DNA of 64,000 nucleotides, taken from positions 4,340,001 to 4,404,000 of the forward strand of contig JAHQIY010000006.1 in assembly GCA_019054805.1 (NCBI GenBank). The letters run 5' to 3'. The position numbers and the translations under genes were made by a program. Shown piece after piece: positions 2,472-61,160 of this stretch (position 1 is its first letter; each line of letters opens with the position of its first letter). The stretch is from Brachionus manjavacas. Lineage: Eukaryota > Rotifera > Eurotatoria > Ploima > Brachionidae. Under the pieces are notes generated by a model. That model worked only from the letters and a program-made list of their open reading frames with translations, did not search any database and was not told the DNA's origin.

Positions 2472-5400
2472 ATATCTTAAAGAAACTCTCTTCTTAAATT
2501 AACATTTATTGAAATTTCTTTTATGCTTCATTTTTAATAATATGATTAATTTTAATGAAATAACTAATTTTATAAGCACCGATTTTCAAGATTTATTTTC
2601 AAGGCTAAGAAATAAATTAAAACTAAGATCATTTTAATAAAATTTTTTAACGATGTAAATTTTGGTTTAATTTGTTCACTTTTTTAAAAAAATATAATTT
2701 CAATTAGTAAAAAAATTTTTTATAGCAATTATGTAGAGTTAAGATGATGGAAAAATCAATCCTACCAAAAATTTAATTTAATTTTTGAATGCATTTTTTT
2801 TATAGAAAATATGGTCAGGAAATGCAATACTTCTTCTTTTCTTCCTAATATTCTATAAGTATATTTATAGAATTTGATTCTCCAACTCAAATTTTTAAAA
2901 TTCATGAACAAATCTTAACATCACCTAAAAGAATACAAGGTTTTTTACTGAAAATTAATTGAATTGATTTATGTTTTCTAATAATAAAACTTTCGCATCC
3001 CTCGTTATATGTAATGATTTTAAAAAATTGACAAAATATATTAAATATGTAACTATTTTATGTATATTTAATTTTTGATAAATAAGAGTCTAAATTTTAA
3101 CAAAATTGATTTAAATAGTGTTTATGCGTTAAAAAAGTTGAATTTTATTCAGATTTGTTTCCAAAATAGATAAATAATTTTAAGTTAAAAACTTTTAAAA
3201 GTGACTTGTTGAATTGCTTGAACCTTCTACTAAAGAATATTTTTATGTAAGCTGATTAAAAACTCTTATCAGTATTTAAAATTCTTATTTTTAGAAATTT
3301 TTTTCAAATATCCAAAATTTTAGATTTCGTTCGTTCAAAAAATTAATAATTCTTCAACAGCACTCGAGGCAGCTTAAAAATCATTTTAACTTCAGGCAAT
3401 AAGCAGTCAAAAGACATAATCTAAGTATCTTACTTCTGCATGCTTAAATATCAACCAATATTTAAAATATTTACCAAAGAAATTTGCTACAGATTATAAA
3501 TATTAAAATTTAAATAATGAAAATAGTTTATTTTTATTTTTTAATTAATTTTTCTTTTTTGTTCAATAAATGCGTATATGTATATAATTAAAAAATTTAA
3601 AAGACTTTAGTATTTTTTGTGCTAATGAATGCTCACGTAAATGAAAGAGGAAATAAAATAAGAATATATCAAAATTGAATTAAAAGGTTTTTTAATGCTT
3701 TGAAATAATTTTTAAGAATTAAAAAAAAAAGTACAAAAGATGATTCATGATTTTTAAAAATGTATTGAAAAGTTTTGTTTGTCTATGAATCAAAAATGAT
3801 TAAATCTTTTAAAACTACTTCAGTTATTTTTTATTTTTTCAAAAAAAAAAAAATTAGTGATGTTTTAAAGTTTTTAAAGAGTATTAATCTTCTAAAAATA
3901 TGAAAAATAAAAATCATATAATATTCTTAAAAATCAATTCTTCAAGGATTGCGTGTGTTGACAATATGTGTGGGTGAGAAAGTTCGGTTGTATGTGTATG
4001 CATGCTCGGTTACATGCAATGAAAAATATTTTAAATCTGTGCCGATATCAATATTCCATTCAAATAGATTGTTTACTCTGAATCTTCAGGGAAATTTCAA
4101 ATTAAATTCAAATTTTCTTTATATTTTGACACATTTTTTTAATTTATTTTTCAACTAAATTTTTATAAAACATTCTTTAATTTCATCCATACTAACTCAA
4201 GTTAACTTTTAAATTTACCAGAAAATTGGGTCTTTGTAGGGATTCTGGACAATTTTAATTTGCATTTTAAAATTTTTGAATCATTTAAAAAAAGATATTC
4301 AAATTTAGAGGTGAGATGATAAAGAACCTTGCAAAACGTTCTTTTCGGAAAAAAGAAACGAAACCGTGACGAATTAAAAAAAAAGTCCGTATTTCATTTG
4401 ATTGCGTTCCATTTCATCCGATTTCATGCCGAACAGTTCCATTCCATTTCATCGATGGCATTATATAATTACCTTAAACTCTTAAAATAATTGACAAGAA
4501 TGTTTAAAAACAATTAAAGGTATTCTCTTTTATGTCAACTAGTTGAAGTTATTTTATAGTTTTCACAAAAATATACTGGGACTTAATTCGATTGATTGCA
4601 AAAAAATATAAGAAATTTCTTCCAAATTGAAATTATCGTATTAAATGTTTTAATAAAATAATAGATTAAATTTAAATTTATTATATTCAAATTTAAAAAT
4701 TCTCTATAAATTTTATTAAATGCAACAAAAAAAATATTTTTTTCAAATTTTAGATAAAACATAAGTTAATTAGAAATAATATTCTAAAATTTCGCCCAAT
4801 AATGCAAAGCCGGATCCCTAAACCAGGGCTACGCTCCAGACCCCTTTTTTTATTAAAAATTTTGTTAGATAAAATCTTATTTCAAAATAAACCCTAAATT
4901 GATAAAACGGTAATCCCTAACCATAATCAATATATGGTTTATTTTGGAATTAGTTTACTTTAAGAATTATTGTTTCAAAAAATTTTTGTTTATTTTATGT
5001 ATTTTTCAACTTATTGATTATATGCAATACTCATAAAATTCTTCAAAAATTTATTTGATTTATGTAAAAGGACACTAATGGACACTAAAGGACAATATTT
5101 TATTTTTAAAAAGTATAGGACACCAAAGGACATAAAAGAATTTTCAGTTTTAAATTCAGGATCATTGTCAATCCATGTAATTTACATGAAATCAAATATT
5201 TTAAAAATTACATAAATGATCAAGTTTTATAGAATTTCTAAATTTTAATGATAATCCTTTTTTTTTAATTTTATAGATAAAATTCAAATATTCAGAAAAA
5301 TTTTATTTATCATTGAAACTTAGTTTTAAATCTGATAAATAGAAAGGAAGAAAAAACATTTCTAAAAATTATTTTGATTTTTTATTATTTTAATGGCAAG

Positions 5401-10190: not shown

Positions 10191-12388
10191 AGTTTTAATT
10201 TTTATTTACTTGTTTATCTGTACCGAGCCAAAGCACCTTCAGATTAAAAAAAAAAAAGAAAAAAAAATTAAAATAAAGTTAAATAAAATAAAATAAAAAA
10301 AAAAAAAAAGATATAAGTTAAAAGTAGATAAATATTAAAATTAAGATTAGATAAATTTTAATAGAGAGTAACAGAGTGCATATTTTAAAATATTTTATGA
10401 TTCAGGAAAAAAAGAAGAAATAGTAAGGTAGCAATTACACAATGGAGTTGAGTATTTGATGTATCTTGATTCGAAACCTTTGTTATATTCTTCCACCAGT
10501 CTAACAGTTAATGGAACAGATTGGCTCAGTCCTGCCCTAACATATCTTTACTCAACTCAAAAAGTCGATTTGAGACTGTTAGTAGTTTAAGTTTATTATA
10601 TGCCTCATAATGTAATATGTTAGAGGGAGTATCATATCTAAGTTTTAGTATAGAATGAACTACTCAATTTTGGACTACATCTAACCTTTTGATATTAGTT
10701 TCTGAAAGAGAGTTCAGACAAGGAAAAGAATAATCTAGAATAGATCCAATCAAAGACTTATAAAGGTTTCCTAAAGTGTTAAAGTCAAGGCCCGATTTTT
10801 TATTCGACAAGATTTTTGTTAAATTTAACCTTGAATTGCAACGTTCTTTAATTTCATCTATTATTGATACCTGGGAACTTTATTTCTTTTAAGCTTTCGA
10901 TTCTATTCCCATAAACCCTTAAATTAAATATAGAACTTTCTTTGTTGTTTTTAGTAAAAATCATTGAGCAAGACTTTTCAACCAAAATCTTCATTTTCCA
11001 CTTGAAAAGCCACTGTTCTAATTCAACAAAGTACTTATTCATCTTACTTTCTTTATTTCCATCTTTTTTATAAATAAAAAAAGTGACAAGATCATCTGCA
11101 AAGAGAAGTAAATATTAATTATTAGATTTATTTCTTTTAGGAATATCATTGATAAATATACTAAATAATAAAGGAATAACTGATTCTTGAGGAAAGCCAG
11201 CAGAAATTTTGAATTCATAACTAATGTGATCATTTATATTTACTTTAAATGTTCTACATGTAAGAAATGATTTAATCCATTTAATTAAGGAGGCAGGAAT
11301 ATTTATCTTTATAAGCCTGTAAATTATACCTTCATGCCAAACTTTGTCGAAAGCTTTAGAAATGTCAAAAAATAAGCAACATACTTTTTTCTTTCTATTA
11401 AAAGATTCGATTTTTTTGGATAAAGAAAACTAAATAATTTTCGGTTCTTAGATGTTTTCTAAAACCAGATTGTTCCTGAATTAGAAGAGAATTTTTTTCT
11501 AAGAAATCATATAACCTTGAAAAAATAATACGTTCAAGCAGTTTAACTAGACAGCTTGTAATGCTTATAGGTCGATAATTGTATGGGTCTTGTGTAGGAG
11601 AAGAATTCTTAGGCATCATTGTGATATTGGAACTTTTTCAAGCTTTAGGAACTGTACCTTTTTGGAGACTAAGATTAAAAAGATCGATTATTTATTTTAA
11701 TAAATTTAAGGGGAGGTCTTTTAACATTAAATTGTGGATAAAATCAGGTCCAAGCTCCTTCTCCCTTTAACCTTTTTTATGCCATAATCATTTCATTTAG
11801 GCTAATCGGTTCATTAATTATTGGCTGACTATTATTCATAAAGTATTTTTAATTAAAATGAGTTATTTATGTATCTTTTCCAGTGTTTTCGAGGTCAGAA
11901 TTAAGACTGAATGTTGAAGATAATATTTTTCCAAATAATTTCCGTTTTTCCTCATCTTGTGTCAAATTACCTTTTTCCGCATAAGGATTCCTTAACTGGA
12001 CATTTTGCTACATTATTATTTTCATCGTCACAAAAATAGCATTTAGGCTTTGGACCAACAATAGAGATTACACATCTTAACACATAAATATTAGCGGGAC
12101 CAGAAAGGTTTTTGATTATATTTTCTGTCTGTTTTGGGTAAGATATTTTCACTCTTTTAACTCCGTTTATTAGAGGCCTTTCTTTATAATTTTCTTCAGA
12201 AATGTACTCGATTTTTAGCCCATCAATCCGAAAGGCATCAAAAAAATTTTTGAGTAATTCGCAATTGAAATTACTGGGTTAGAAGTGAAAACGAAAAGTA
12301 ATGTACTTTCTAAGATCCGGTAATTTTTTTGCGTCTTCAAGATTAAAATTTGTTCCATTTATAATGATTGTCCGATTGTAGATATCTT
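10191..12388 (-). pseudogene. Jockey-like LINE with 3' hairpin, inserted into the Merlin-like transposase
   Basis: Read on the minus strand: an ORF1-like piece with a zinc knuckle (CYFCDDENNNVAKCP at about 11990-12050; the histidine of C-x2-C-x4-H-x4-C is replaced by Asn), then reverse transcriptase segments NYRPISITSCLVKLLERIIF and QSGFRKHLRT (11619-11420), SAGFPQES, and the catalytic FADD box (about 11090), followed by a degenerate thumb region to about 10400. Several stops and frameshifts make it non-functional. The 3' end is an A/T-rich stretch followed by the hairpin at 10216-10244. ORF1 is interrupted at about 12389 by the next LINE. Confidence 0.75.
10216..10244 (-). repeat. GAGCT-type hairpin at LINE 3' end (copy 2)
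   Basis: ATCTG and CAGAT form the outer arms and GAGCC/GGTGC-type bases the degenerate inner arms. The hairpin sits at the minus-strand 3' end of the LINE at 10245-12388, just before Merlin sequence resumes at about 10190. Confidence 0.65.
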
Positions 12389-13255
12389 GTAGTAGTAGTA
12401 GTAGTAGTTTTGACTGTAGTTGGCTAGCCAGCGAGTGTGCTGATAAGGCACACAATGACAGCTGATGTGATTGATTGCGGCTCATCCAGCAATCAATGCC
12501 TGCTTTAAAGCTATTAACATTAGGGGCTTCAACTAATTGATTTGGCAGTGAGTTCCATATGTTAGCGGTTCTGTTGAAAAAAAAGTTATCTCTATGTTGG
12601 AGCCTCGAAATTTCTTTGTGATATTTGAAGCAGTGACCTCTTCCTTGGATTTTGGTGACATTAAAATTGTTGCTTTTTTCAACCAATTCTATTCCATGCA
12701 TGAACTTGTGTAACTGAATCAGATCACCTCTTTTTCTTCTTTCCACCAGATTTGGAATGTTTAAAGCTTTCAATTTGCTTTCATACGGTTTGTTTCTAAT
12801 TGAAGAAACAAATTTCGTAGCTCTGCGTTGAATCCTCTCAAGATTCTCACAATCCGACTTAAGAAATGGAGACCACACAGGCACAGCAAATTCCAAAAGA
12901 GGACGAACAAAAGTTAAATACAATGATCTAAATAACTTACAATCAAAACGAGCGAATGATTTCCTGATGCGACCCAACATTTGATTTGCTTTGTTTGTAG
13001 CCTCTATCACTTGATTTTTCCATTTGAGATTTGTATTGAAGATAACTCCAAGATCTCTTTCGGTTTCAGACGTTGATAACTGTTTACCATCAATAAAATA
13101 AGTGAATTCTTTGTTTTTATGACCGTAATGCATAACCACACATTTTGATGTGTTGAAGAGAAGAAGCCAATCTTGAGTTCACTTGAAAATTAAATCTAAA
13201 TCTGTTTGAAGTTTCATTGCGCTTATTTCTGATACCTTTTGCGAGAATATTTTTG
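12389..13255 (-). pseudogene. CR1/L2-like LINE fragment ending in (CTA)n, copy 1
   Basis: The minus strand encodes the post-catalytic part of a LINE reverse transcriptase from about 13250 downward: KLQTDLDLIF, SKCVVMHYGHKNKEF, ERDLGVIFNTNLKWKNQV, FVRPLLEFAVPVWSPF, LERIQRRATKFVSSI, NIWNSLPNQLVE and SLCALSAHSLASQLQSK. It then runs directly into CTA repeats (12389-12408) read as leucines. A TGA replaces a conserved Trp near 13180. Downstream of the CTA run the frame continues by chance into the older LINE's ORF1. It is 5'-truncated and closely similar to 27785-28234. Confidence 0.8.
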
Positions 13256-22779: not shown

Positions 22780-23060
22780 TTTCCAAATATTTAATTTAAG
22801 TTTTAAATGTGCAATTAAAAACATATTAAATGAATAAACCAAAGTGAGTAGAAATTAGATTTTTGGTCACTTTAAAATGGACAAGAAAAACAAAGAAATT
22901 TTTGATAGTTTTGCTAGACCAGTAAGCTTAAGAACAATTCAAAGATGAACAAATGATTTCAAAATATTTTGAAAAATTAGCAAACTGAGCAAAACGTTTC
23001 CTTATGTTAATAATATTCAATAAAAGATTTTTTTTTCTTTTAATCCACTAAAATAAATTA

Positions 23061-23260
23061 CAGTACAAAGCTGAAAAAAGTTATCAACTATTTCAGAACA
23101 AATTTTAATTTTTTTTTAATTTTTTTTTAGAAAATTTCAGAAAAAAATTTAACCAAAACTTAATTTTGGTCTGAACAAATTCAAAAAAAAAATTGAAACT
23201 GATTTGTTTTTTTTGAAACTGAACAAAAACTGAAAAATATAAATTGTAAACTTGACCTTT
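23061..23260 (+). repeat. Left terminal inverted repeat of the Tc1/mariner element
   Basis: The first 31 bp are identical to the right end in inverted orientation. The middle has drifted, and the inner edge (GAAACTGAACAAAAACTGAA to AAACTTGACCTTT) matches again. Repeated GAAACTGA words inside suggest subterminal transposase-binding repeats. Confidence 0.85.
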
Positions 23261-23522
23261 GATTAAATTTAATGATAAATCTTATTGGATAAATTACTAG
23301 TCTATTGTTGTTTCAATTTAAACAATCATAATATTACTGCTAGCTATTAATACTAAAATAATAAGATTAAACTCATGCCGACTTATTTTTCAATTTCTTT
23401 TAATCTTTAACATTCAATATTTTAAAAAAGAATTCTTTTTTTTTAAGCCGCTCTTTTAATATTAGTTAAAATTTTACACTAAAATTGTTTGCTTTAGAAT
23501 TTATTTTTTTAATATAAAAACA

Positions 23523-25270
23523 ATGTATAAAATAGCCGATAAGGTTCAAGTTCTTGATAGGACATGTTTTGTTTGGCGAAACGCAACAATAAAAGATATC
23601 AAAAACAATGATTATGTGATCCACTTTGATAACTATCTTAATAAATATGACAGCGAATATACAATAGGTACTGTTTTAAAAAATAAATATTATCAACTTA
23701 TATTTTAATTTCTTTTAACGCTTTTTTAACAGAGCTGATTCGAGAGCCTGTGGCAGAACGCGAAATAGCTCGGAATAGCTTGATCGTAAAGTCGATCGAT
23801 TTAGCTAATTTAATAAACAACGATAAAATAATGTTTAAAATAAACCAGGAAACATTTCAAGGTATTAGATGTTTTTTTTTTAAATTAATTATGGAATTAA
23901 ATTTTATCTTTAATTTTTTAAAGGGACTGTTATTCAAAATGACCCTTATTTATGTTGTTTAAAAGTACTTGAACAAAATTGTTGTGACGTTATGTACGAA
24001 CAAGTGCTTAGTACTAGTAAAGAAGTTGCGTTTAGTAGCAGAAGAAAATCGCTTAGTTCAAATGCATTAAATAAGGTTTTATTTAGATTTGTTAATTTAG
24101 CTTTTTTCAATTAGATTAGAAAAATTTATTTTTAAGTTGTTGGATTCTGTTATGGCTACCTCAGTTGATTCTATTCCAAAAGTTAATTTTATTCTATGTA
24201 TCTTATTTATTATTATTAAATTTTAATCTACTAAACGTTAAAGAAATTAACAAAAAATCTTTCTCAATTATCTTCAACTTCTGAGAAACAAGTAATATTT
24301 AAATTGAAGTGTTTTTTATTTATTTGATTTAATAAAAAATTACAATTTAAGATTCAAGTTCATGCTGAGTTCTTGGCAAAAACAGATAAAGTTAAAACAA
24401 AAAATGCACCAAAAAGTTCAAAAAACAAGTGCGATTTGACACAATTTGAACAAGTTGAATTTGAAAAATTGCAAAGTCAATTTAAGGATAAACTTACATC
24501 AACTGAGTCATATAAAAATGAACTCAACGATATTAACCAAACCTTAAAAGAGGGATTGGAACTTGTAATTGTTATAAATTTAAGTTTAATTTAATAATTT
24601 TCAAACTATTATTTTTTGTAATTATTAGATCTCAAATAGCATCAACGTGTGCAACAGCTATTTATCCGAGTTGGTAAAACAACAAAGCAGATGTATTGAA
24701 CAAAAAAATGAAGTTATGATGAATCATAGAGTCTTAACAGATCAAAACAAACATAAAGAGACTGACCAAAGAATAATACAAAATACATCGGTCTTAGATA
24801 AATCTTCTCATTATCAACCAATGCTTAATCAATCTGTATTATTTGACGATTTTATTTCAGCAAACGAAGAATATTCAGGGCCAATAGATAGAGACGTTAT
24901 TTCTTCATTCGATGCTAATATTAATAGATCTTATGCTACTCCAATTCACCGTAGAGAGAATTATAGCAATATTGACTATTGCTCGAGATCAGATTTAGAA
25001 GAGTTAATTAGAGAATCAAAAACTGGCCCTCTTTTTGCAGCCAATGTACTTGAAAAGATATTTTGCCGTGAAGAGTTGGTTGGTTGTAATGTTTATGGAA
25101 AGGGTGATAAGCTTGCTAATAAAAAACCATTGGATCTGAATAAGATAAACTATATAAAAAAATTGTGTAACAATCATTACAATAATAATGTAAACAATAA
25201 AATTGTCAAATTTTGGGAACAATGTGTTATTTATATGAATCGGCGAATTAGGAACATTTTAACAAATTAG
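23523..25270 (+). CDS. Passenger protein with Tudor/chromo-barrel-like N-terminus, coiled coil and C-terminal BEN domain
   Basis: Seven exons: 23523-23667, 23733-23861, 23924-24075, 24137-24181, 24244-24291, 24352-24564, 24629-25270, giving 1,374 nt (457 residues). All six introns are 60-65 bp with GT-AG ends and consistent phases. Residues about 1-55 resemble a Tudor-knot/chromo-barrel: KVQVLDRTCFVWRNATIKDI, then VIHFDNYLNKYDSEYTIELI. Residues about 183-265 are charged and heptad-like (FEQVEFEKLQSQFKDKL), a likely coiled coil. Residues about 377-452 match the BEN domain: ANVLEKIFCREELVGCNVYG, then KKPLDLNKINYIKKLC and VKFWEQCVIYMNRRIR. BEN domains bind DNA or mediate protein contacts in chromatin repressors. 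It lies wholly inside the Tc1/mariner repeats, tail-to-tail with the transposase. The unbroken frame over seven exons argues for recent or continuing selection. Role in the element is unknown; targeting, self-repression or host-chromatin interaction are inferences. Confidence 0.83.
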
Positions 25271-25995
25271 AGTTTTATAATTAGCTATCAATAACAAGAT
25301 TGTTTTTTTAAATCAATTGATTTTCTTTTCTTAATGTTAAAACAATCTTAATTTTTTCTAAAATTAAAGAAAAACAATTATCATAATTCCTCTTTTTTTG
25401 TATAATTTGGAATTTTTTAAGACTTATTTTACTTAATAGCCATTAAAATTGATTTAATTAAATTTAATTAATAAATATTTTTTTTAAAAAAACAAAGCTA
25501 ACTATTTATCTCTTTATTATTGAATGCAGAGTTGGTCCTTGAAAAACATCACAAGTCAAAGTCAGACTTTGAATTTTCATTGAATGTATCAGTTCGAACC
25601 AGTTGGGTAGCTACATCATGGCAACGAAAGTCGGTCGACCCCTAAAAAGACAATTCTTTTTTGTAATTATTAATTCAACACGCTTAGGCCAGATAATAGG
25701 TCCAGGAGCAACTTTCTAAGTTTTTAATCGAACCTAGTTGTGAAAGAATATTAAACTATTTTTGCTCTTTTTGAATTTAAATATAGTCTAAGAATTTTGT
25801 TTTAATAAAAAGAAGCATTTTTATTTACACAAATATAACCAAAGCATAATAAAATATAAAAGCAGAATCCTAAATAAAATAAACACAAAAGTTTTGGTGA
25901 ATATAAAACTAAATACAAAATAAAAAGGAGCTTCAGCTCGACCAGATAAAACTTAATAAAAAAAAAGCAACGAATCGAACATTTCATTCATAGTC
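25271..25995. other. Non-coding spacer between the two convergent transposon genes
   Basis: Holds both 3' ends. At about 25529-25650 there is a less AT-rich patch beginning CAGAGTTGGTCCTTG with AAGTCAAAGTC words, reminiscent of the hAT-type MITE at 20220 but without a recognisable second end. Confidence 0.45.
25924..25947 (+). repeat. GAGCT-TC-AGCTC hairpin (copy 3)
   Basis: GGAGCTTCAGCTCGACC is followed by AGATAAA, the same arrangement as at the LINE 3' ends (8881, 10216). Here it lies in the 3' region of the transposase gene inside the Tc1/mariner element, so it is either a tiny LINE tail insertion or a structural element shared by both transcripts. Confidence 0.5.
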
Positions 25996-27307
25996 TTAGT
26001 AACCAGTAGCTCTACCATTATTTAAGATAACATGTGGAAGAACTCTTTTAACATGTGAGATGTATCTTTGACACTTTTCGACTGTTAATTCTTTTTGCCA
26101 GAATTGGCCTATTTGCTTAATAAAATGAGTCTTTGAGGTCGGTTTTTGATGTCTAATATATGTCTTAAGCTCATGCCATACAAGTTCGATTGGATTCAAA
26201 TCCTTTAAACAAAAACTCAAAAGCTATGAAAAAAAAAATATATATATATATTTATTACTGGACTTTGAGCTGGAGTGGGCCAATGGTTTATTTTATTTTC
26301 TTTAAGCCAATCTTGAGTAAAGAACGATGTATGTTTGCGATCGTTGTCCATTATTAAACGGTGACTATCCGGAAAACAATCGCTATAAAAAAAAACAATA
26401 TATAAATAAATAGTTTAATAAATGTCTAGTCTGTTTAATGTATTTTACCTAATAAAAGGTAGTAAGTTTCGTTTAAGAATATTTGTAAAATCGTTGCTAT
26501 ACATCGTCCCATTAAAAATGCAAATTGGTGTTGCACCTCTATTGCTTATTCCTCCCCATAGAAGAAGCTTTAATATAATACAATTGGCTAAATTTTTTTT
26601 AATATTTTAATACATCGAGAAAAATACCTTTAATGGGTGCTTTGCGACTGGAGCTTTATAATACCGACATCCTTTTTTTACCCAACTACAATCACACATT
26701 AAAACAAAAAAATCAATATAAATAAAAATGGTAATAAAACTAACTTTTTAAAGTATGAAGCTCGAGTTCGATCATACATTCATCAATAAAAATACAATTA
26801 TTAAGCTCATCTCTAGTTGATAAACAAAAATTTGCATACAAAGCTCTCTTAATTACATTTTTTTCTGAAACAATCTGACAATACCTTTTTCAAATAAAAA
26901 TAAATAAATTTCTGAAAAAGTTGATACATTAAAAATATAGATTAGTAACCTGGTTGTTTTCCTAGTCCAATCGAGTTTTTTAGCAGCCCTACTAATCGTG
27001 TCTCTGCTTACTTTTAAGCTAAATTCAGAATAAATTTTAGCAACTAAATGAGCAGAAGTAATTTGTCTGTTGGATTTTATTTGTTCATCAATATATTGGT
27101 AATGTTTTTCGCTAAATAATGTCTTTTTTCCTCTTCCAGGTAAGTCTTGTAAACTGTGCGTACGTTGATATTTTCTGCAAATTTTTCCAACTGACACACG
27201 ACTAATTGGACTGTCTTCTGTTTTTAAAATCTGAGAAATTTTTGTATGAGATAAACCTTTTGATCTTAATAATATTATTTATGGCGAATATTAATTGTTG
27301 CTCTCAT
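25996..27307 (-). CDS. Tc1/mariner DD34E transposase with five introns and an N-terminal frame break
   Basis: Exons: 27307-26950, 26884-26741, 26685-26628, 26567-26449, 26382-26259, 26202-25996; introns 55-66 bp. An HTH region (KGLSHTKISQILK, SVGKICRKYQRT, then PGRGKKTLF) is followed by DRAAKKLDWTRKT-like RAAKKLDWTRKTTRYCQIV. The catalytic residues are seen in FIDECMIEL, IMDNDRKHTS and LNPIELVWHELK; the second Asp and the Glu are 34 residues apart (DD34E, Tc1 group). HPLKLLLWGGIS and GTMYSNDF are also typical. The first ATG (27307, MRATINIRHK) is separated from the rest by a one- or two-base frame change and a TAA near 27285, so the N-terminus is damaged or wrongly sequenced. From there to the stop no further break is needed. 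Donor of the second intron (26740) is the least certain. Tc1 transposases usually have none or one intron. Confidence 0.8.
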
Positions 27308-27435
27308 ATTGATAATAAACTTTTATTGATTAAATGATAATATTCAAATTGGCTTAATAAACATAATTCTTGGCTTATTTATAAATGAAATTAGATTCAA
27401 TTAAATAATTAACATTAAATAAAACTGAAACTTTA

Positions 27436-27624
27436 AAAGGTCAAGTTTAATTTATTAAATTTTCAATTTTGTTCAGTTTTTGAAAAACAAAACAGTTTTT
27501 AGTTTTTGTTTAAAAAAAATTTTAATTTTAGCTTAGACTTTGTTTAATCTTTAGTTTGACTTTTTCTTAGAAAAAAATTTGAAAATGTTCTGAAAAGTTG
27601 ATAACTTTTTTCAGCTTTGTACTG
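27436..27624 (-). repeat. Right terminal inverted repeat of the Tc1/mariner element
   Basis: Inverted partner of 23061-23260, ending in ...CTTTGTACTG followed by TA at 27625-27626. Confidence 0.85.
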
Positions 27625-27784
27625 TACCTTTAATTTTGCCACATTTACTATTTTGGAAACAGAAACAAAATAGGGAGAAAGAAGCTTGAAAGACAAAATT
27701 TAAAGAAATAAAAGAATTAACCTTATTCAATATTAAAAAATTGACAGACAACTAATTTTAACAAAATAGTATCATCCCAATATT

Positions 27785-27798
27785 TAGTAGTAGTAGTA

Positions 27799-27854
<56 letters not shown>
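27785..27854. repeat. (TAG)n/(CTA)n microsatellite at LINE 3' end
   Basis: About 23 TAG units with one AAG interruption. On the element's sense strand these are CTA units and form its 3' terminus in place of poly(A). Confidence 0.9.
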
Positions 27855-28234
27855 TTTGACTGTAGTTGGCTAGCAAGCGAGTGTGCTGATAAGGCACACA
27901 ATGACAGCTGATGTGATTGATTGCGGCTCATCCAGCAATCAATTCCTGCTTTAAAGCTATTAACATTGGGGGTTTCAACTAATTGATTTGGCAGTGAGTT
28001 CCATATGTTAGCGGTTCTGTTGAAAAAAAAGTTATCTCTATGTTGAAACCTCGAAATTTCTTTGTGATATTTGAAGCAGTGACCTCTTCCTTGGATTTTG
28101 GTGACATTAAAATTGTTGCTTTTTTCAACCAATTCTATTCCATGCATGAACTTGTATAATTGAATTAGATCACCTCTTTTTCTTCTTTCCACCAGATTTG
28201 GAATGTTTAAAGCCTTCAATCTGCTTTCATACGA
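27785..28234 (-). pseudogene. CR1/L2-like LINE fragment ending in (CTA)n, copy 2
   Basis: Minus-strand translation repeats that of 12389-12800 almost word for word: MKALNIPNLVERRKRGDLIQ, FMHGIELVEKSNNF, RTANIWNSLPNQLVE and SLASQLQSK followed by about 22 leucines from CTA repeats. Homology to copy 1 stops abruptly at about 28234, the 5' truncation point. Close similarity to copy 1 suggests both inserted fairly recently. It lies 160 bp outside the Tc1/mariner element. Confidence 0.82.
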
Positions 28235-28635
28235 TTTTAAAATTTAAACTATCTAAATCAACTAGAAAGGACTGACAAGTCCGAATAGACTTTAAAAAAA
28301 ATTAAAAAAATAGTGATCCACAATGCAACTTATTCTTCAAATAAATCGTTCCAATGTGAAATAAACTTGATTGTGATGCAAAATCAATAACCGTTGTCAG
28401 ATATTTTTTTTTAACATTACTTTTTAAAAGCGTACTATTTTATTTTTTAAATTAGGAATTTGAAATGATTAAAGAAAAATCTTTTTCGGTTTTTGAGATT
28501 AGGTTGAAAATCAACAAAAAAAGCTTCAAACAAACTGAAAAAAAAAACTAGCCTAAATTTGGCTTTTTTTGATAGATAAAACGTTAATTTTCAAAATTGA
28601 TATGAGAGAGCAACAATGGTAGATGACGCCCTCTA
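28235..28635. other. Intergenic, no feature seen
   Basis: AT-rich sequence between two LINE fragments. Confidence 0.4.
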
Positions 28636-41370: not shown

Positions 41371-44300
41371 ATGAATGACAAACAAAATGGAATTGATGAA
41401 AGTCTGTATTCGCGCCAATTGTAAATCAATAAATTTAGAAATATTTCAAAATTTTACTTGATTAAAAAAGGTACGTACTTGGACATGAAGCAATGCAAAA
41501 AATGCAACATTCAGACATTTTAATACTCGGTTTAGGAGGTTTAGGTGTCGAGATAGCGAAGAATACTATCCTTGCTGGGGTAAAATCAGTTACTCTTTAT
41601 GACAACAAGGATGTTTCTTATGAAGATTTATCTTCCCAAGTAGTCTAAGATTTTAAATTTATTTTCCAATTTGTTAAAAATTGTCAGTTTTATTTAAAAG
41701 ATACCGACATTGGCAAAAACAGAGCGACTTGTTCTCAAAAAAGCTTATCAGAACTAAATCCATATGTTCCAGTCTTTGCAAAATCTGGAAATGTTAAAAT
41801 CGAAGACCTGATCCATTTTCATGTAAAACACAAAATTTCCTTATCTGGTTTTGATTTTTAGAATTTTAAAAGGTGGTTGTTGTAACGGATAGTTTTAGTG
41901 AGGAGCAAATTAGAATTGCTGAAAACTGTCATAAAAATGAAGTAAAGGTTATATGTGTGGAGACAAGAGGATTGTTTGGAAAAATTTTTTGTGACTTCGG
42001 AAAATCATTTCGGATAATGGACATAAATGGCCAAAGTCAAAAAACTTCGATGATTTCTTATATTACCAATGATAGAGAAGGTATTGTGACTACTTTTGAA
42101 GATCAAAGACATGATTTAGAAGACGGTGACTTTGTTACCTTCAAAGAGGTCAAAGGAATGACTGAAATAAATGGCAGAGAATTTAAAATTTCAGTTTTAA
42201 GTAAATTAAAATTTGAATTTATAATTTTAATTTTAGAATTTTTTAAATATTAATTTTAAAAGCTCCATTTTCTTTTATTATCGGCGATACCAGTAATTTT
42301 GGTGAGTACAAAAACGGAGGAATTGCAATCGAAGTCAAAAAGGAAAAAATAATTAATTTTGTAATTTTGAATTTGATTTTTCGGAAAAAAAGTACATTTC
42401 CTTTAGTAGAAATCAATGGAATGTTGCATAGACGAGCCACAATTTTTTGACCAAGACAGCTATTGGGGAGATGCAGACCCAAAAAAAATCGACAATATAT
42501 CAATTCATGTTGCTTTTCAAGCTTTGGATGAATTTAGACAAGAAAATTCAGGTCAACTTCCTAAACCATGGGATCTAACCGATTCAAACCGCTTCGTCGA
42601 AATTGCTTTTTTAATCAATTCCCAAAGAAAAAACCCTTTTCCTAAGCTAAATGAAAGTTTATTAAAAATTTTTTCTTTCACTTGTCGCGGAAATCTGTGC
42701 CCCATTCAGTCAATTATTGGAGGAATAGCAGCACAAGAAATTATAAAAGCATGCTCAGGAAAATTTTATCCCATTCACCAACTATTCTATCTTGATTGCA
42801 AAGAGATTCTGCCAGAAAATTCTTCCAAAAATTTGGATCAATATAAGCCTGAATCGAATTCCAGACATTATTCACAAATTATTGTTCTTGGAAAAGAAAT
42901 TCAAAATAAAATAGAAAATTTAAAATGTTTTTTAGTGGGGTCAGGAGCATTGGGATGTGAATATTTAAAAAATTTTGCTATGATGGGTCTCGGTTCAGGA
43001 CCCGATGGTCTAATTACCGTAACCGATATGGACACTATTGAAAAATCCAATCTAAACAGACAATTTTTATTCCGTAGCTGGGATGTTCAAAAATCTAAAG
43101 CTGAAGTTTCATCTCGTGCTGCAAAAAACATGAACCCTAATTTAAAAATTCGGACAAATTTGAACCGTGTAGGTCCTGAAACCGAGCATATCTATAATGA
43201 GGAGTTTTTCAATTCTCTAGATGTTGTTTGTAATGCATTGGACAACGTTAAAACTCGTCTTTATATTGATGCCAAGTGCATTGAGTACAGAAAGCCTTTG
43301 ATTGAATCAGGCACTTTGGGAACCGAAGGTAACGTTCAAGTTTGCTTGCCGTATTTAACAGAAGCGTATTCTTCTTCCCAAGATCCTCCTGAGAAAAATA
43401 TTCCCATTTGCACGCTAAAAATTTTTCCTAATGCTATCGAGCACACTATTCAATGGGCTCGGGACCTATTTGAGGGTTTATTCTCCAACCCGGTTGTTTC
43501 GGCAATGAATTTTTTGCCAAATTCTGAATTCTATTTGAAAAATTTGTCTAAGCTCGGAAGTCAGCAGCGTCTAGATGAGCTTCTACAGCTTGAAAAAATT
43601 CTAATCAGTGAAAAATGTGTCACTTTTGAAGAATGCATCATTTGGGCCAGAAAAAGCTTTCAGGAAAATTTTCACAATACCATTCAGCAGTTATTATTCA
43701 ATTTTCCGGCCGATTTACAAACTTCGAATGGTTTACCATTTTGGTCTAGCCCAAAGCGGTGTCCGCACGCTCTAAATTTTGACCCAAATAATCGAACACA
43801 TTTAGCTTATATTTTTTCGGCAGCAAATTTAAAAGCTTATTTGCATGGAATTGAACAGGTTACAGATTGTAAGAAAATTTTTGATTATGTAAAAAATGTT
43901 CAAGTGGAACCATTCAAGCCAAAATCAGGAGTTAAAATAAAAATAAATGAAAATGACGAGGATGAATTTACCGATGAGGACGAGATTGAGATTGAAAATT
44001 TGATTCGCAAGCTAGAAAATCAACACCTGAAATTGAAAAATACTAATTTGGTAAAAATTGACTTTGAAAAAGACGATGATACCAATTTTCATATGGATTT
44101 TGTTACTTCTTGTTCGAATTTAAGAGCTGAAAATTATGATATAACACCGACTGATAAACATAATGTAATTTTTATCTAAAATTTATTTTTTATTTTTTTT
44201 CACCTAAATTTTTATAAGACAAAATTAATAGCCGGAAAAATAATACCAGCTATTGCGACCACTACCTCAGTAATTGTTGGTTTAGATTGTATAGAGCTTT

Positions 44301-51852: not shown

Positions 51853-54198
51853 ATGAAATTGAATAATCTTAAGTTCTGGTCTAACACCAATTTGAAGAAA
51901 AAATACCGCAACATGTACTTTAAAAAGCGGACTGCACATTTGTTCAAAAATAGCAAGTTTCTCAATAGGTACTATTCCAAATTGAACCAAAACGCCAAAA
52001 ACCAATTCAATTATAAGCTACCAATTTTGACATGTATTGAACTTGTTCAAGGATCGAACCTGCCTGCCGGCACCGAGAGCAACCCAGTGCTTTACAATGA
52101 CTACCTTTTAATTTCCTCAAAGACCAAATACAAATACTTATTACGTACTCTATATGAACAAGTTAATTTGGACTCCAAAGATAATTATACAATTGAAGAT
52201 GGTATCTATTTTTTTTAAATAAATAAAAAAATTCTTATTTTATTTTTTTAGGGTTTTTACAAATAAAAAACTGGGAACCTGTAAGCTTAAACAGTATTAG
52301 TTCGATAAAGCAATGCTTCAAATTGGAAGCCAGAAATTTGGCTGATAAACAAGACCAGTGCGAGACCACCGATGTAAATAGCAAAGAAACTAATAACGGT
52401 GAGATAGAAAATACGGAAAATTGTCAGATAAATGAGTCATTAGACATTTGCTCAAGTCCTATGTCCCAAAATTTACACCAAAACGAAAAAAGTGCACCAA
52501 AAGCCAGTATCAGTGTATATGATATTTTGTCACATGTGGTCAGCTTTGCCACAATCAGGATAATGGTAAAGAGCAAAGACTCGGTAAATATGCAATCTCA
52601 AGCAATGGAAGATGATTCAAACCAAGAAAAAATATCGAATCTAGATAATGGGTCAGAATCCAATGATAATTTAGAAGACGACAAGGAAACTGGTGTCACA
52701 GATAGTCCAATTTTGAACACAGTGCCCAATTTTACCTCCATGTTGTATTCAAGTCCTCAATTTGCTAGCCTTCTTCCTCTCTTCAATTTGCCCATAATAA
52801 CCCAACTTCTTAATGGAATAAAAAGTCAGCAGGAAAAAAAAGATTTTACGAGTTTTTCCGAAGATTTAAATAGCGAATCTGATAATAATTTTAATCAACA
52901 GCCTCTAAATTTAAGCAAAGATGTGGCCAAAAATGTAAATAGTAAAAAAATGACTCAAAACTTAAGTGTTAGTACAAACAAAATTCAAAATAATATTGGA
53001 TTTGACAATGCTTCACCATCTCCGTCATTGTCCACCACTTCTTCTACTTCCTCATCGTCAAGCTGTTCCAAAAATTTAAAACAGACCGACTCGGCTCACA
53101 CTTTAAATTCCAAGTATAGCAAAGAGCTGATTGTTAATGAACAGCTAAAAAGTTTTCCTAGCCAAAGTCAAATCAAAGTGAGCTATGGCAATCGGCGCCA
53201 AAGAGAACGAACCACATTTGATCCGCAAGAAGAAATAACCCGATTGATGCAAGTGTTCGAAAGGACGCATCATCCGACACGATTTCAAATTGCGAACATT
53301 TGCGAGTTTTTGAATTCTCTTGGTTGCCGCAAGGACAAAAAACCCCTTGAGCCATACAATATTCAATATTGGTTCAAGAATGCTCGCGCTGCTCTGAGGC
53401 GAAAAGTTAAAGGCGATAGCCAAAATTCAAATTTTGAGTTAAACTCTAAAGTGGCCAACACAGTAAAAGATGATGAATTTTTGAACAAAGTTTTGAACAC
53501 AAGACCCTCATCGCATACACTTAGCTCCAAATTCACAGATAACAATGAACTCAATGGAGACACTTCGGACCAAAATTATGAAGATTCGAATTTGGATGAG
53601 GACGAAGTGAATGATGACGAAGAGGTAAATTTGAAAATTGAAAATTGTGATTCATATTATGAATATCAAAATTCTGAATCAGGTAGAAAATTTTAAATAA
53701 AAATTAAAGCTTTTTTTAACTTTTATTTTTAAAGAAAATGGATTCAATAAAAATAATGATAAGGAAAATCTAGAGAATATCGAGAACAGTACTTGCTATG
53801 AAGACTGTGAGTATCAGGATGACTTGAGTTATGACGGGGAGGAAAATAACCAGGAAATAGCTAATAACTCGGCTGGCAATTTAGGCATCAATGTGACTCC
53901 AGGCGCTAAAATTCGAAATCCATCAAATGGAAGCCGACGAAACCGAGTGTTCATAGATCCGATCAGTGAGGTGCCTATTTTGGAGCATTATTTTTCCATC
54001 GAGACCTATCCGGATCATTACTTAATTGAAAAAATTTGCGAAAATCTTAACAAAGGTGAGTACAGATACAAGTTTCCGAAGTTGGAGTCGAGAAATATTC
54101 AATTGTGGTTCAAGAATCATAGAGCCAAGCTCAAGAGGCTAAAAACGAATCCATCAAGTTCAAGTTTCAATCAAAATCAGTCTAATCCTGTGTCATAA
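51853..54198 (+). CDS. dve: Defective proventriculus/SATB-type protein with two homeodomains, paralog A
   Basis: Nuclear regulator of the SATB/Dve group (CMP/ULD domain plus divergent homeodomains). Three exons, 51853-52201, 52252-53682, 53735-54198; 2,244 nt, 747 residues. The ULD spans about 54-224: KLPILTCIELVQGSN, YNDYLLISSKTKYKYLLRTL, FLQIKNWEPVSLN, SISVYDILSHVVSFATIRIM. A conserved hydrophobic block (FTSMLYSSPQFASLLPLFNL) follows. PLNLS (334-338) resembles a CtBP-binding PxDLS motif. Homeodomain 1 (about 431-504) has RRQRERTTFDPQEEITRLMQ, the extended loop CRKDKKPLEP and IQYWFKNARAALRRK. Homeodomain 2 (about 661-730) has RRNRVFIDPISEVPILEHYF, GEYRYKFPKLE and IQLWFKNHRAKLKRLK. The roughly ten-residue insert before helix 3 is characteristic of Dve/SATB homeodomains. 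Acidic stretches lie between the homeodomains. Confidence 0.87.
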
Positions 54199-58824: not shown

Positions 58825-61160
58825 ATGAAGTTCAATTCAACCTGTAAATCAAAGACAAATCAACGAAAAATGTATTTTAAACGACGCAATGCCCATTTGT
58901 TCAAACACAAGTTCAATCATTCCAGGTTGCACTTCACAGCACATTCCAAACCAATCTACAAACTGCCAATTCTAACTTCCATAGAATTAATTGACTTTTC
59001 TTCAGACGATTTAATCAACCCTAAAATCGGCATATCTTCCAGCAATTCCATTTTGTTCAACGATTACTTACTGGTCTCAGCAAAAACTAAATATAAGTAC
59101 CTTCTATGCACTCTGTTTGACCAAGTCAATCTAAACTACAAAGAAAATTATCTCATTGTAGATGGTAAACAAATAAAAAAAGATTGGAAACGTTTTTTAA
59201 AAAGCTTATTTTTAAGGTTATGTAAAACTTGGAGATTGGGAACCAATTTCTTTGAATAACATTATCTCAATAAATCAATGTTTAGATAAGTTTTGTGACA
59301 ACGAAGTCAAAATCATGTCTAAAAAATCTAAATTGGACACAAAACATGCGGACTCTGTGTCCGTATATGACGTCCTTAAGCAAGTAATTAGCTTGATTTC
59401 GATAAATATTAGAGTTAAAACTAAGTAATTTTATCAGAATTAAAAAAAAATAATGATTAATTGTATTTTATTACTGGCAGAAAAGGAGATGATTTTGGCG
59501 ATTGTAAAATAGGTTGTATAGAAACTAGTGCCAAGAACCAAATATGCAAAAAATTACAGGATTTAAATGACGATGATGATGATGATGAAAATTTTGAGCG
59601 TTCAGACGATTATCACGAAAGCACTGAGCAGCGAGAGTGTACTTTCACCGAAGTGACAAATGAAGATGAGCTTCAACACGACAATAATATCGAGGATCAA
59701 GAGGATCACGAGGTTGCATCAGATTCCAATGCTCAGTACTTGAACAATTTAGGTCTAAGTTCAAAATTTCCCAACATATCTCCAAATTTAGCAGCTCTAC
59801 TTTACACTAATCCTCATTTGGCAAATCTTTTTTCCATGTTTAACTTTCCAATTTTGAGTCAGTATTTGAATGGCTTCAAAAAGCCCGACCATCAGACAGA
59901 ATTTTCTAGTATTCTAAACAAACAAAATTCAAACTCAAAACATTCTTCTTCTAATCTATCGATTGAAACCCGGCTATTGAACAATTTAAATGAATCTCAC
60001 AATTCAAATAACTATGCATCCCCTTCATCTAGCTACTCTTCAGCCTCTTCTACATCTTCAGCATCTTCTTATAAGCACAATCAGTGTCAAAATATGACCA
60101 AATTGGCACACAACGAAGACAATTTTTCTTTTCAAAGCTCACATCTTGATCAACTTCAAAAGCAGTTTCAACAAGAGAGCAGTTTAGGTCAAAATTTTGC
60201 CAAAGAGAAAAAACAGCGAGAAAGAACCACCTTTGATCCTCATGAAGAGATAAGTCGTTTGATGCAAATATTCGAGCAAACCCATCATCCAAGTCGATAC
60301 CAAATTGCCAGTATTTGTGATTCACTGAATTCGCTGGCTTGTCGCAAAGACAAAAAACCCCTCGAACCTTACAATATTCAGTATTGGTTCAAGAACGCTC
60401 GAGCCGCTTTAAGACGAAAGAGCAAAAGTGACAATTCAAGTCAGAGCAAAAATGGCATTCCAAATGATCTGGGCTCAAATGAAGACTCAAAGAACTCATT
60501 TGATGATTTTGACGAAACTAATTTGGACAAAGTTGAGAGTTGTTTTTTAAATCAAAAAGGTTTGTTTTTTAATTACATAACTAATAAATAAACAAAAATC
60601 ATTTAAAATTCATTATCAAAGGAGTCAAGCATGAAAAAAGTGATCAAAATGTAAATAAAATAAATTATGACTATCAAAACGAAGAAGCTAGTACAAAAAT
60701 TTTGGACACAAACCATAATCGTGTTAATCACCTTCATAAGAATGTCTCTACCAACTCTCTTAGTGCACCAAAAAGTAATGGAAGCCGACGCAACCGAGTG
60801 TTTATAGATCCGATTAGTGAAGTGCCCATTTTGGAACACTATTTTTCTATTGAAACATATCCAGATCACTACTTGATTGAGAAGATATGTGATATACTTA
60901 ACAAAGGAGAATATCGTTACAAATTTCCAAAATTGGAAGCTAGAAATATTCAGCTGTGGTTCAAAAATCATCGAGCTAAGCTTAAAAGATTGAAAACTGC
61001 AGCTTCTGAATCGAGTATAGCAGATGTGAACCATGCCAGTAAGTCTAAATTATGCTCAGAAAAAGAAGAAGGTGATAGTGGCGAAATTTTCGAAGATTAT
61101 GATTATGGAGACTATGAAAGTGAAGATAATGGACAAAACTCACAAACCATTTCAAATTAA
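58825..61160 (+). CDS. dve: Defective proventriculus/SATB-type protein with two homeodomains, paralog B
   Basis: Tandem duplicate of the gene at 51853. Four exons, 58825-59164, 59217-59424, 59481-60559, 60622-61160; 2,166 nt, 721 residues. ULD: YKLPILTSIELIDFS, FNDYLLVSAKTKYKYLLCTL, YVKLGDWEPISLN, SVSVYDVLKQVISLISINIR. An aspartate run follows intron 2. The hydrophobic block is LAALLYTNPHLANLFSMFNF. Homeodomain 1 (about 426-498): KQRERTTFDPHEEISRLMQI, CRKDKKPLEP, IQYWFKNARAALRRK. Homeodomain 2 (about 598-667) differs from paralog A at about three positions. Introns 1 and 3 sit at the same codons as introns 1 and 2 of paralog A; intron 2 (59425-59480) has no counterpart. No PLNLS motif is present. 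The C-terminus is acidic (GDYESEDN). Confidence 0.87.

Follow-up and report, generated by a model that had tools for sequence, protein, structure and literature searches.

The window analysed here is a stretch of 64,000 nucleotides from the genome of the rotifer Brachionus manjavacas (assembly GCA_019054805.1, contig JAHQIY010000006.1, positions 4,340,001 to 4,404,000 of the forward strand), and all positions given without a contig or locus name refer to it. Positions 23061-27624 hold a complete Tc1-family DNA transposon of 4,564 bp with two convergent genes, one for a transposase on the minus strand and one for a passenger protein with a BEN domain on the plus strand. That the two genes form a composite mobile unit within a single pair of terminal inverted repeats (TIRs) is virtually certain. 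The original prediction, made from the sequence of the window, had already described inverted ends with TA on both sides, and both the direct reading of the borders (TA followed by CAGTACAAAGCTG on the left, CAGCTTTGTACTG followed by TA on the right) and the alignment of the arms confirm them: the arms at 23059-23092 and 27593-27626, which include the TA target-site duplications (23059-23060 and 27625-27626), are 97% complementary over 34 nt. Inverted-arm alignment, comparison of copies and a genome-wide TIR scan place the TIR core at 23061-23092 on the left (plus strand, beginning CAGTACAAAGCTGAAAAAAGTTATCAACT) and at 27593-27624 on the right (minus strand). This core is perfect over 29 bp and is nested in degenerate repeats of about 200 bp, as 23061-23260 (plus strand) aligns with gaps to the reverse complement of 27425-27624, the extended TIR or subterminal region of the right end (minus strand). 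The predicted repeats are thus present, but the length originally given for them does not hold, since the similarity runs on in degenerate form.

The transposase gene comprises six exons between 27307 and 25996, separated by introns of 56-66 nt that are all of the GT-AG type. Exon 1 (26950-27307) begins with an ATG at 27307 and codes for a helix-turn-helix region; exon 2 (26745-26884) contains the first catalytic aspartate; exons 3 (26628-26685) and 4 (26449-26567) follow from the splice model; and splice model and triad mapping together place the second aspartate (DND) in exon 5 (26259-26382) and the glutamate (DLNPIE) in exon 6 (25996-26202). Relative to the other four long copies of the element, two single-base changes interrupt the frame in the window copy, one in exon 1 near 27280 and one at the 3' end of exon 2 near 26745; they could in part be assembly errors. 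Domain, structure-relative and triad searches were run on the open copy on contig C9. This protein matches Pfam DDE_3 at 2.7e-21, and its sole solved relative at E ≤ 1 is the Sleeping Beauty transposase SB100X (2.1e-20). The catalytic triad is D154, D238 and E273, the last two being separated by 34 residues (DD34E), and the N-terminal helix-turn-helix is matched by HTH_Tnp_Tc3_2 (6.9e-4) and HTH_32 (8.6e-4), both below their curated cut-offs. These Pfam domains are also found in many homologues. The closest proteins are three from Brachionus, 59-72% identical over 56-79% of the query (one of B. calyciflorus, 62% over 79%, and two of B. plicatilis, 72% over 56% and, for P0071, 59% over 56%), and non-Brachionus relatives are 35-47% identical among the best 120 of 254 relatives. 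The enzyme is a Tc1-family DD34E transposase, as predicted for this strand, although it is the C9 copy and not the window copy that reads through.

On the opposite strand the passenger gene, predicted as an uninterrupted gene of seven exons with a BEN domain, was indeed found with an intact frame encoding 457 amino acids in the window copy; its six introns measure 60-65 nt and are all GT-AG. Exon 1 (23523-23667), coding for the N-terminus discussed below, is followed by exons 2 (23733-23861), 3 (23924-24075), 4 (24137-24181) and 5 (24244-24291), by exon 6 (24352-24564), which looks like a coiled coil by eye only, and by exon 7 (24629-25270), which holds the C-terminal BEN domain and the stop codon. 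Eight slightly different splice choices, giving 457-463 amino acids, likewise stay open. When up to six introns were allowed, the longest spliced open reading frame (ORF) of the passenger stretch was 474 amino acids versus a maximum of 202 amino acids in 60 dinucleotide shuffles of that stretch, which places the spliced frame far beyond chance. The BEN model PF10523 matches exon 7 alone at 1.1e-6 and the spliced protein at 4.8e-7, spanning residues 380-453 with 29.1-30.3 bits against a curated cut-off of 23.2. Exon 7 had no match among phages, plasmids and PDB sequences, including no solved BEN structure. A search with the N-terminal 70 residues gave the MBT repeats of L3MBTL3 at a whole-sequence E of 2.3e-5, a value summed over the repeats; with rows from diverged relicts (see below) added, L3MBTL chains were 14 of the 18 PDB sequences listed (best E 0.012), with PHF20 among the weaker matches. 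No Pfam model reached its cut-off on the N-terminus, the nearest being MukE (0.0028) and Agenet (0.008), and MukE chains also appeared in the structure-sequence search at E 0.05 and above. We regard the N-terminus, with moderate to weak confidence, as MBT/Tudor (Royal family)-like, so that both domains, the BEN domain and more weakly the N-terminal one, would point toward chromatin.

Used as a single sequence, the passenger protein found no relative at E ≤ 0.01 in a set of 5.8 billion proteins; the same set searched with the passenger alignment yielded three proteins, P0121 and P0122 of B. plicatilis, plus P0123. The hypothetical protein P0121, from the HYR1 assembly, matches 99% over 39% of the passenger. 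It runs through exon 6 and the 5' half of exon 7 (24629-24952) and continues at 25529-25642, which would correspond to a spliced form that lacks the BEN domain and may reflect either real alternative splicing or an error of gene prediction; outside the five long copies of the element the stretch 25529-25642 was not found.

Copies of the element in the genome

The assembly searched comprises 114,169,980 bp in 61 contigs. A scan of these 114 Mb with the 29-bp TIR, allowing up to 3 mismatches, returned 12 matches, which correspond to both ends of six elements, and a control scan with the reversed pattern returned none; TA flanks both ends in all six. The elements measure 4,564 bp (window), 4,383 bp (C9), 6,461 bp (C5), 4,425 bp (C2a), 4,421 bp (C2b) and 837 bp (C1). 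Both genes are present in five of them, which are 98.7-99.9% identical to one another over aligned sites, and the sixth (C1:7074522-7075358; locus L002, 1023-1859) is an internal-deletion derivative without window positions 23487-27213. The ends occur at five sites on five contigs (C1, C2, C5, C6 and C9). Because C2a and C2b share their flanks, one of them is a segmental duplicate, so that five insertion events remain, four of them with both genes. The BEN exon was found at ≥98% identity at five places in the genome, all inside elements (13 of 13 candidates scored), and both genes must therefore have moved as one unit. Neither a single copy nor a set of further copies that never contain the BEN gene, two outcomes named beforehand as fatal to the original prediction, was observed, and the suggestion that the genes move together is borne out: the passenger-carrying pair has moved recently to several sites as a unit.

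These data also dispose of the idea that a host BEN gene came to lie by chance between two independent mariner ends, or that the arrangement is a misassembly, which we consider extremely improbable and in favour of which nothing was found: the same ends at five sites, one of them bounding a deletion derivative, speak against it, as do the passenger parts annotated in the B. plicatilis HYR1 assembly (P0121 and P0122), and chance trapping of a host gene was rejected on the copy survey. An empty site was not found in this assembly; a query made by joining the sequences on either side of the window copy matched only those two flanks and, partially, a sequence on C19 (78%, query positions 4-105) that does not span the junction. 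A supposed distant TIR match at L006 (C6:2281687) was rejected, as no TIR is present there at up to 6 substitutions. Copy C2a has both frames open, and several residues distinguish its transposase from the C9 enzyme, including one between the aspartates of the DND motif, both of which are kept. The C5 copy (L003) carries a nested insert of 1,897 bp at the equivalent of window position 23458, with a MULE transposase domain (PF10551, 3.3e-13). The C1 deletion copy retains perfect 29-bp ends and is of the kind from which a miniature inverted-repeat transposable element could start.

Diverged relicts, passenger-less relatives and selection

Comparison of the first 244 residues of the passenger with the genome revealed, in addition to the young copies, five loci of diverged sequence with E-values of 8.7e-6 to 0.08, namely L026 (C12:5826-7425), L027 (C37:290373), L028 (C2:6785063), L029 (C3:242003) and L030 (C12:585166), and a further, weaker match at C7:3909697 (E 0.19). 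Part of exon 2 is matched in L026 and L027. At L026 the passenger part lies on the plus strand with a transposase remnant downstream on the minus strand (E 2.4e-24), and at L028 the passenger lies on the minus strand (E 1.9e-7) with the C-terminus of a transposase on the plus strand (E 7e-5), so that the convergent layout with a remnant of this transposase lineage recurs in two of the five relicts. In the comparisons at the relict loci, controls with reversed proteins stayed at E 0.14 or above. L026 is interrupted by a piggyBac-type transposase (PF13843, 5.2e-15).

The original prediction had proposed the ratio of nonsynonymous to synonymous change (dN/dS) in the BEN gene as a test, and the outcome differs between old and young copies. 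Between the window copy and the relicts, with relict stop codons and pairs of fewer than 30 codons left out, the proportion of synonymous differences (pS) in passenger codons is saturated at 0.78-0.92, whereas the proportion of nonsynonymous differences (pN) is 0.28-0.41, at all five loci and over 36-120 codons each; transposase codons behave alike (pS 0.66-0.88, pN 0.19-0.48 over the loci compared). Relict segments were picked by protein similarity, which biases pN downward, and decay of the relicts adds nonsynonymous changes; saturated synonymous sites with such values of pN would nonetheless be hard to obtain without constraint. The combination implies that the passenger outlived one burst of transposition, and a passenger carried over the divergence of subfamilies is most simply explained as kept for the transposon's own use. 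That the passenger is maintained because it serves the element is, in our judgement, probable. Our favoured explanation for the whole, to which we assign a probability of roughly 55%, is a two-gene DD34E cut-and-paste transposon that carries an accessory protein, predicted to bind DNA or chromatin, in its own service.

Several observations weigh against this explanation, and a number of them would suit hitchhiking, i.e., a captured host BEN gene that brings the element no benefit and persists as it is no bar to transposition. Among the young copies constraint is not seen: the 18 variable coding sites of the BEN gene comprise 4 synonymous and 14 nonsynonymous changes, which is about neutral, although the dead C5 copy alone accounts for 10 of the 14 and the count without C5 (3 to 4) is too small to judge. 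Variable sites per kb, indels left out, number 13.1 in the BEN exons, 23.9 in the transposase and 21.5 in noncoding parts. The BEN frame is open only in the window copy and in C2a (which lacks one codon) and broken in the other three long copies, by deletions of 146 and 25 bp in the exon 3-4 region (C9), a frameshift and a stop (C5) or a frameshift (C2b); the transposase frame is open in three of the five (C9, C2a, C2b) and broken in the window and C5. The BEN exon is not detectable in any of the five relicts, so that a lasting association is seen for the N-terminal and exon-6 parts alone, and the exon-6 match, at L028, is itself weak (E 0.007). No convincing transposase remnant was found in the 3.5-5.4 kb on the expected side of L027, L029 and L030, the best candidate near them (at L027, E 0.099) having the wrong orientation. 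L031, in turn, is a transposase relict whose DNA is 84% identical to the one in L026, and no passenger was found in the 4.1 kb on its expected side. The genome also holds related BEN domains at other places, the four best with 39-45% identity, as a captured host gene would have it. As to the protein, the best single MBT repeat of L3MBTL3 reached an i-Evalue of only 0.74, AlphaFold models of exon 7 and exon 1 from single sequences were unusable (mean predicted local distance difference test scores of 39 and 43), and the two noncoding ends of the element hold no recurrent words beyond 7-mers seen three times.

Relatives of the transposase without a passenger point in the same direction. Sister transposases on contigs C26 and C46 are, block by block, 43-64% identical to this transposase; their common block of 1.68 kb consists of the transposase only, and the loci taken from there yielded nothing similar to the passenger at E < 0.05. 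The passenger is therefore not needed by all relatives, and it has been gained, or lost, within this transposase clade. A tree from 95 columns groups the window transposase, L026/L031 and C26/C46/P0071/P0001 without a firm order (support 46-65), and no fitting TIRs were found at relict or sister loci. C46 (108000-145000; L011 to L014) holds large repeats of up to 9 kb with 96-99% identity, as well as four copies of the passenger-less sister transposase. A related TIR proposed for C26 (L015, 5664-5692) was rejected, as this end belongs to an abundant repeat family ending TACAGTACGTTTCTGAAATAAGTTGACAG, with at least 48 matches in the genome, and not demonstrably to the C26 transposase; in L015 it adjoins a GC-richer tandem array with units of about 44 bp.

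Despite these points, hitchhiking seems unlikely to us. Neutral cargo would hardly survive the long divergence to relicts with saturated synonymous and restrained nonsynonymous change, the convergent layout is the same at L026 and L028, and decay after insertion is what any transposon protein shows.

Comparison with known systems and the possible role of the passenger

Tc1 elements as described in PMC7325037 contain one ORF and have a mean length of about 1300 bp. The element shares with the Tc1 family (Sleeping Beauty, Tcb2-like) the TA target, the TIRs, the DDE_3 domain with DD34E and the helix-turn-helix N-terminus; it differs in its 4,564 bp, in the introns of both genes and in the second gene, and it does not have the typical single-ORF form of about 1.3 kb. 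The earlier statement that Tc1/mariner elements carry the transposase only consequently holds for the described Tc1 form but not for the superfamily, since the ciliate elements TBE and Tec, which also have DD34E transposases, contain extra ORFs, in TBE including one for a zinc-finger protein (PMC7325037, excerpted text). These live in other hosts and have three ORFs, other passengers and other TIR lengths, and no BEN or MBT-like protein is described for them in the excerpted text of the same source; conversely, neither gene of our element contains a Pfam domain for a zinc finger or recombinase of the TBE/Tec type.

Accessory proteins of other transposons offer functional parallels. In PIF/Harbinger elements a Myb-like protein (Myb/SANT/MADF) encoded by a second gene inside the element is reported to bind a subterminal motif and to be required for transposition (PMC9710019); the transposase family and the accessory domain are unrelated to those found here, and the canonical target-site duplication is 3 bp (PMC12730594, in part) as opposed to TA. 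The VANC proteins of VANDAL transposons, which bind to noncoding regions, strip away silent marks (PMC10398659, in part), and such a chromatin-acting protein carried by the element may serve as a working model for the passenger. Pfam reported no VANC domain in the passenger. VANC recognises motifs repeated in tandem in noncoding DNA, and a word search of the noncoding ends of the element found no clear counterpart of these. The most enriched words in the whole element, ATACATCG (4 times versus 0.04 expected) and AGTTGATAA (4 times versus 0.09 expected, two of them within the TIRs), are scattered, and the expectations are uncorrected for the many words tested. Fungal DNA transposons with a TET/JBP dioxygenase likewise carry an epigenetic gene; the superfamilies concerned include hAT, IS3EU, Harbinger, EnSpm and KDZ, and mariner is absent from the main text of that source (PMC12730594, in part). 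BEN domains have also been noted in bracovirus and poxvirus genomes, those of bracoviruses being joined to another N-terminal domain (PHA02737) and being viral genes outside transposons (PMC4574769, in part). Our best reading is that the passenger may work like the Harbinger Myb-like protein or VANC without being related to either.

It is established for the family that the DD34E transposase moves the element. The passenger protein would enter the nucleus, bind DNA through its BEN domain, perhaps bind modified histones through its MBT/Tudor-like N-terminus, and multimerise through its middle stretch; it would in this way keep the element expressed, or help the transposase to find or use the ends. 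The original prediction had mentioned steering of integration, silencing of the transposase and countering of chromatin as possible roles. We prefer an accessory function exerted on the chromatin of the element itself, and a specific function in anti-silencing or the opening of chromatin is only a tentative suggestion.

Could the passenger be an obligate co-factor, as in PIF/Harbinger, that binds subterminal DNA and is needed to guide the transposase to the element's ends or to get it into the nucleus? The long degenerate subterminal repeats and the presence of a second protein of DNA-binding type would fit, but a passenger-less sister lineage exists, the noncoding ends lack a recurrent word beyond the 7-mers mentioned above, and purified mariner transposase is reportedly sufficient for transposition in vitro, going by the title of one study cited in PMC5704228. 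Even with the Harbinger precedent (PMC9710019, in part) we deem this version rather doubtful. A guiding or restraining function, in which the MBT/Tudor-like and BEN parts direct new copies toward certain chromatin or keep the element repressed and so spare the host, could draw on the occurrence of a reader-like and a BEN domain in one protein, on the low copy number of six elements and on a Drosophila BEN protein reported as a DNA-binding repressor (PMC4574769, in part). Five insertion sites are, however, too few for site preference to be tested, and we hold such a function to be quite improbable. The reading of an accessory protein that serves the element thus stays preferred.

Other loci and significance of the passenger

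Several further features were observed in the window and elsewhere in the genome. Host genes of the window at 42410-44176, 52227-53693 and 59461-60588 represent part of a ubiquitin-activating enzyme E1 and two related homeobox genes. A repeat ORF that includes a run of leucines occurs twice on the minus strand, at 12279-13178 and at 27758-28243, and a TAG microsatellite encodes the leucines of the second copy; by eye the ORF looks like a reverse-transcriptase C-terminus, and searches against Pfam gave nothing at 0.01 for the first copy and only weak matches for the second. Loci L016, L017, L018, L019, L020 and L024 contain, around 3815-5280, a different family of about 790-890 bp with ends resembling CAGTACAATCCAAAACAAAGTTAACG and an N-terminal transposase fragment. 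On contig C6, L007 (3920-6852, minus strand) and L008 (4286-9373, plus strand) each hold a Tc1/Pax-like helix-turn-helix exon, matched by HTH_32 at 1.1e-6 and 1.2e-6 (below cut-off), together with one or two BEN exons in the same orientation. These loci are possibly host genes, perhaps domesticated, that join a DNA-binding domain of the transposase type to BEN, the joining of the exons being putative.

A Tc1/mariner element with a BEN passenger was not found among the papers listed or read from the open full text of PubMed Central (subscription journals and Repbase lay outside the search), in agreement with the original prediction, which knew of no described family of this kind. Extra ORFs in the superfamily are already known from TBE and Tec, and the new aspect would be the passenger and its persistence. 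A bolder version of the favoured explanation, which we put forward as speculative and more doubtful than not, is that an animal Tc1/mariner lineage has evolved its own chromatin factor, with MBT/Tudor-like and BEN parts that would recognise element DNA together with local histone marks, and would act against silencing or guide insertion; it would be the animal Tc1/mariner counterpart of the plant VANC proteins, and L007 and L008 could be domesticated descendants of elements of this kind.

Tc1/mariner elements are the textbook example of a minimal transposon that needs no more than a single protein of its own. A lineage with a second protein of chromatin type, retained over time to judge by its relicts, would be an unusual animal DNA transposon with chromatin machinery of its own, in which mobile DNA brings its own chromatin-type gene to each insertion site. 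Gene editing has reportedly been achieved in rotifers, judging by the title of one study (PMC10395877). Silencing, targeting and self-restraint of cut-and-paste elements may become direct questions, to be asked of an element with or without one gene.

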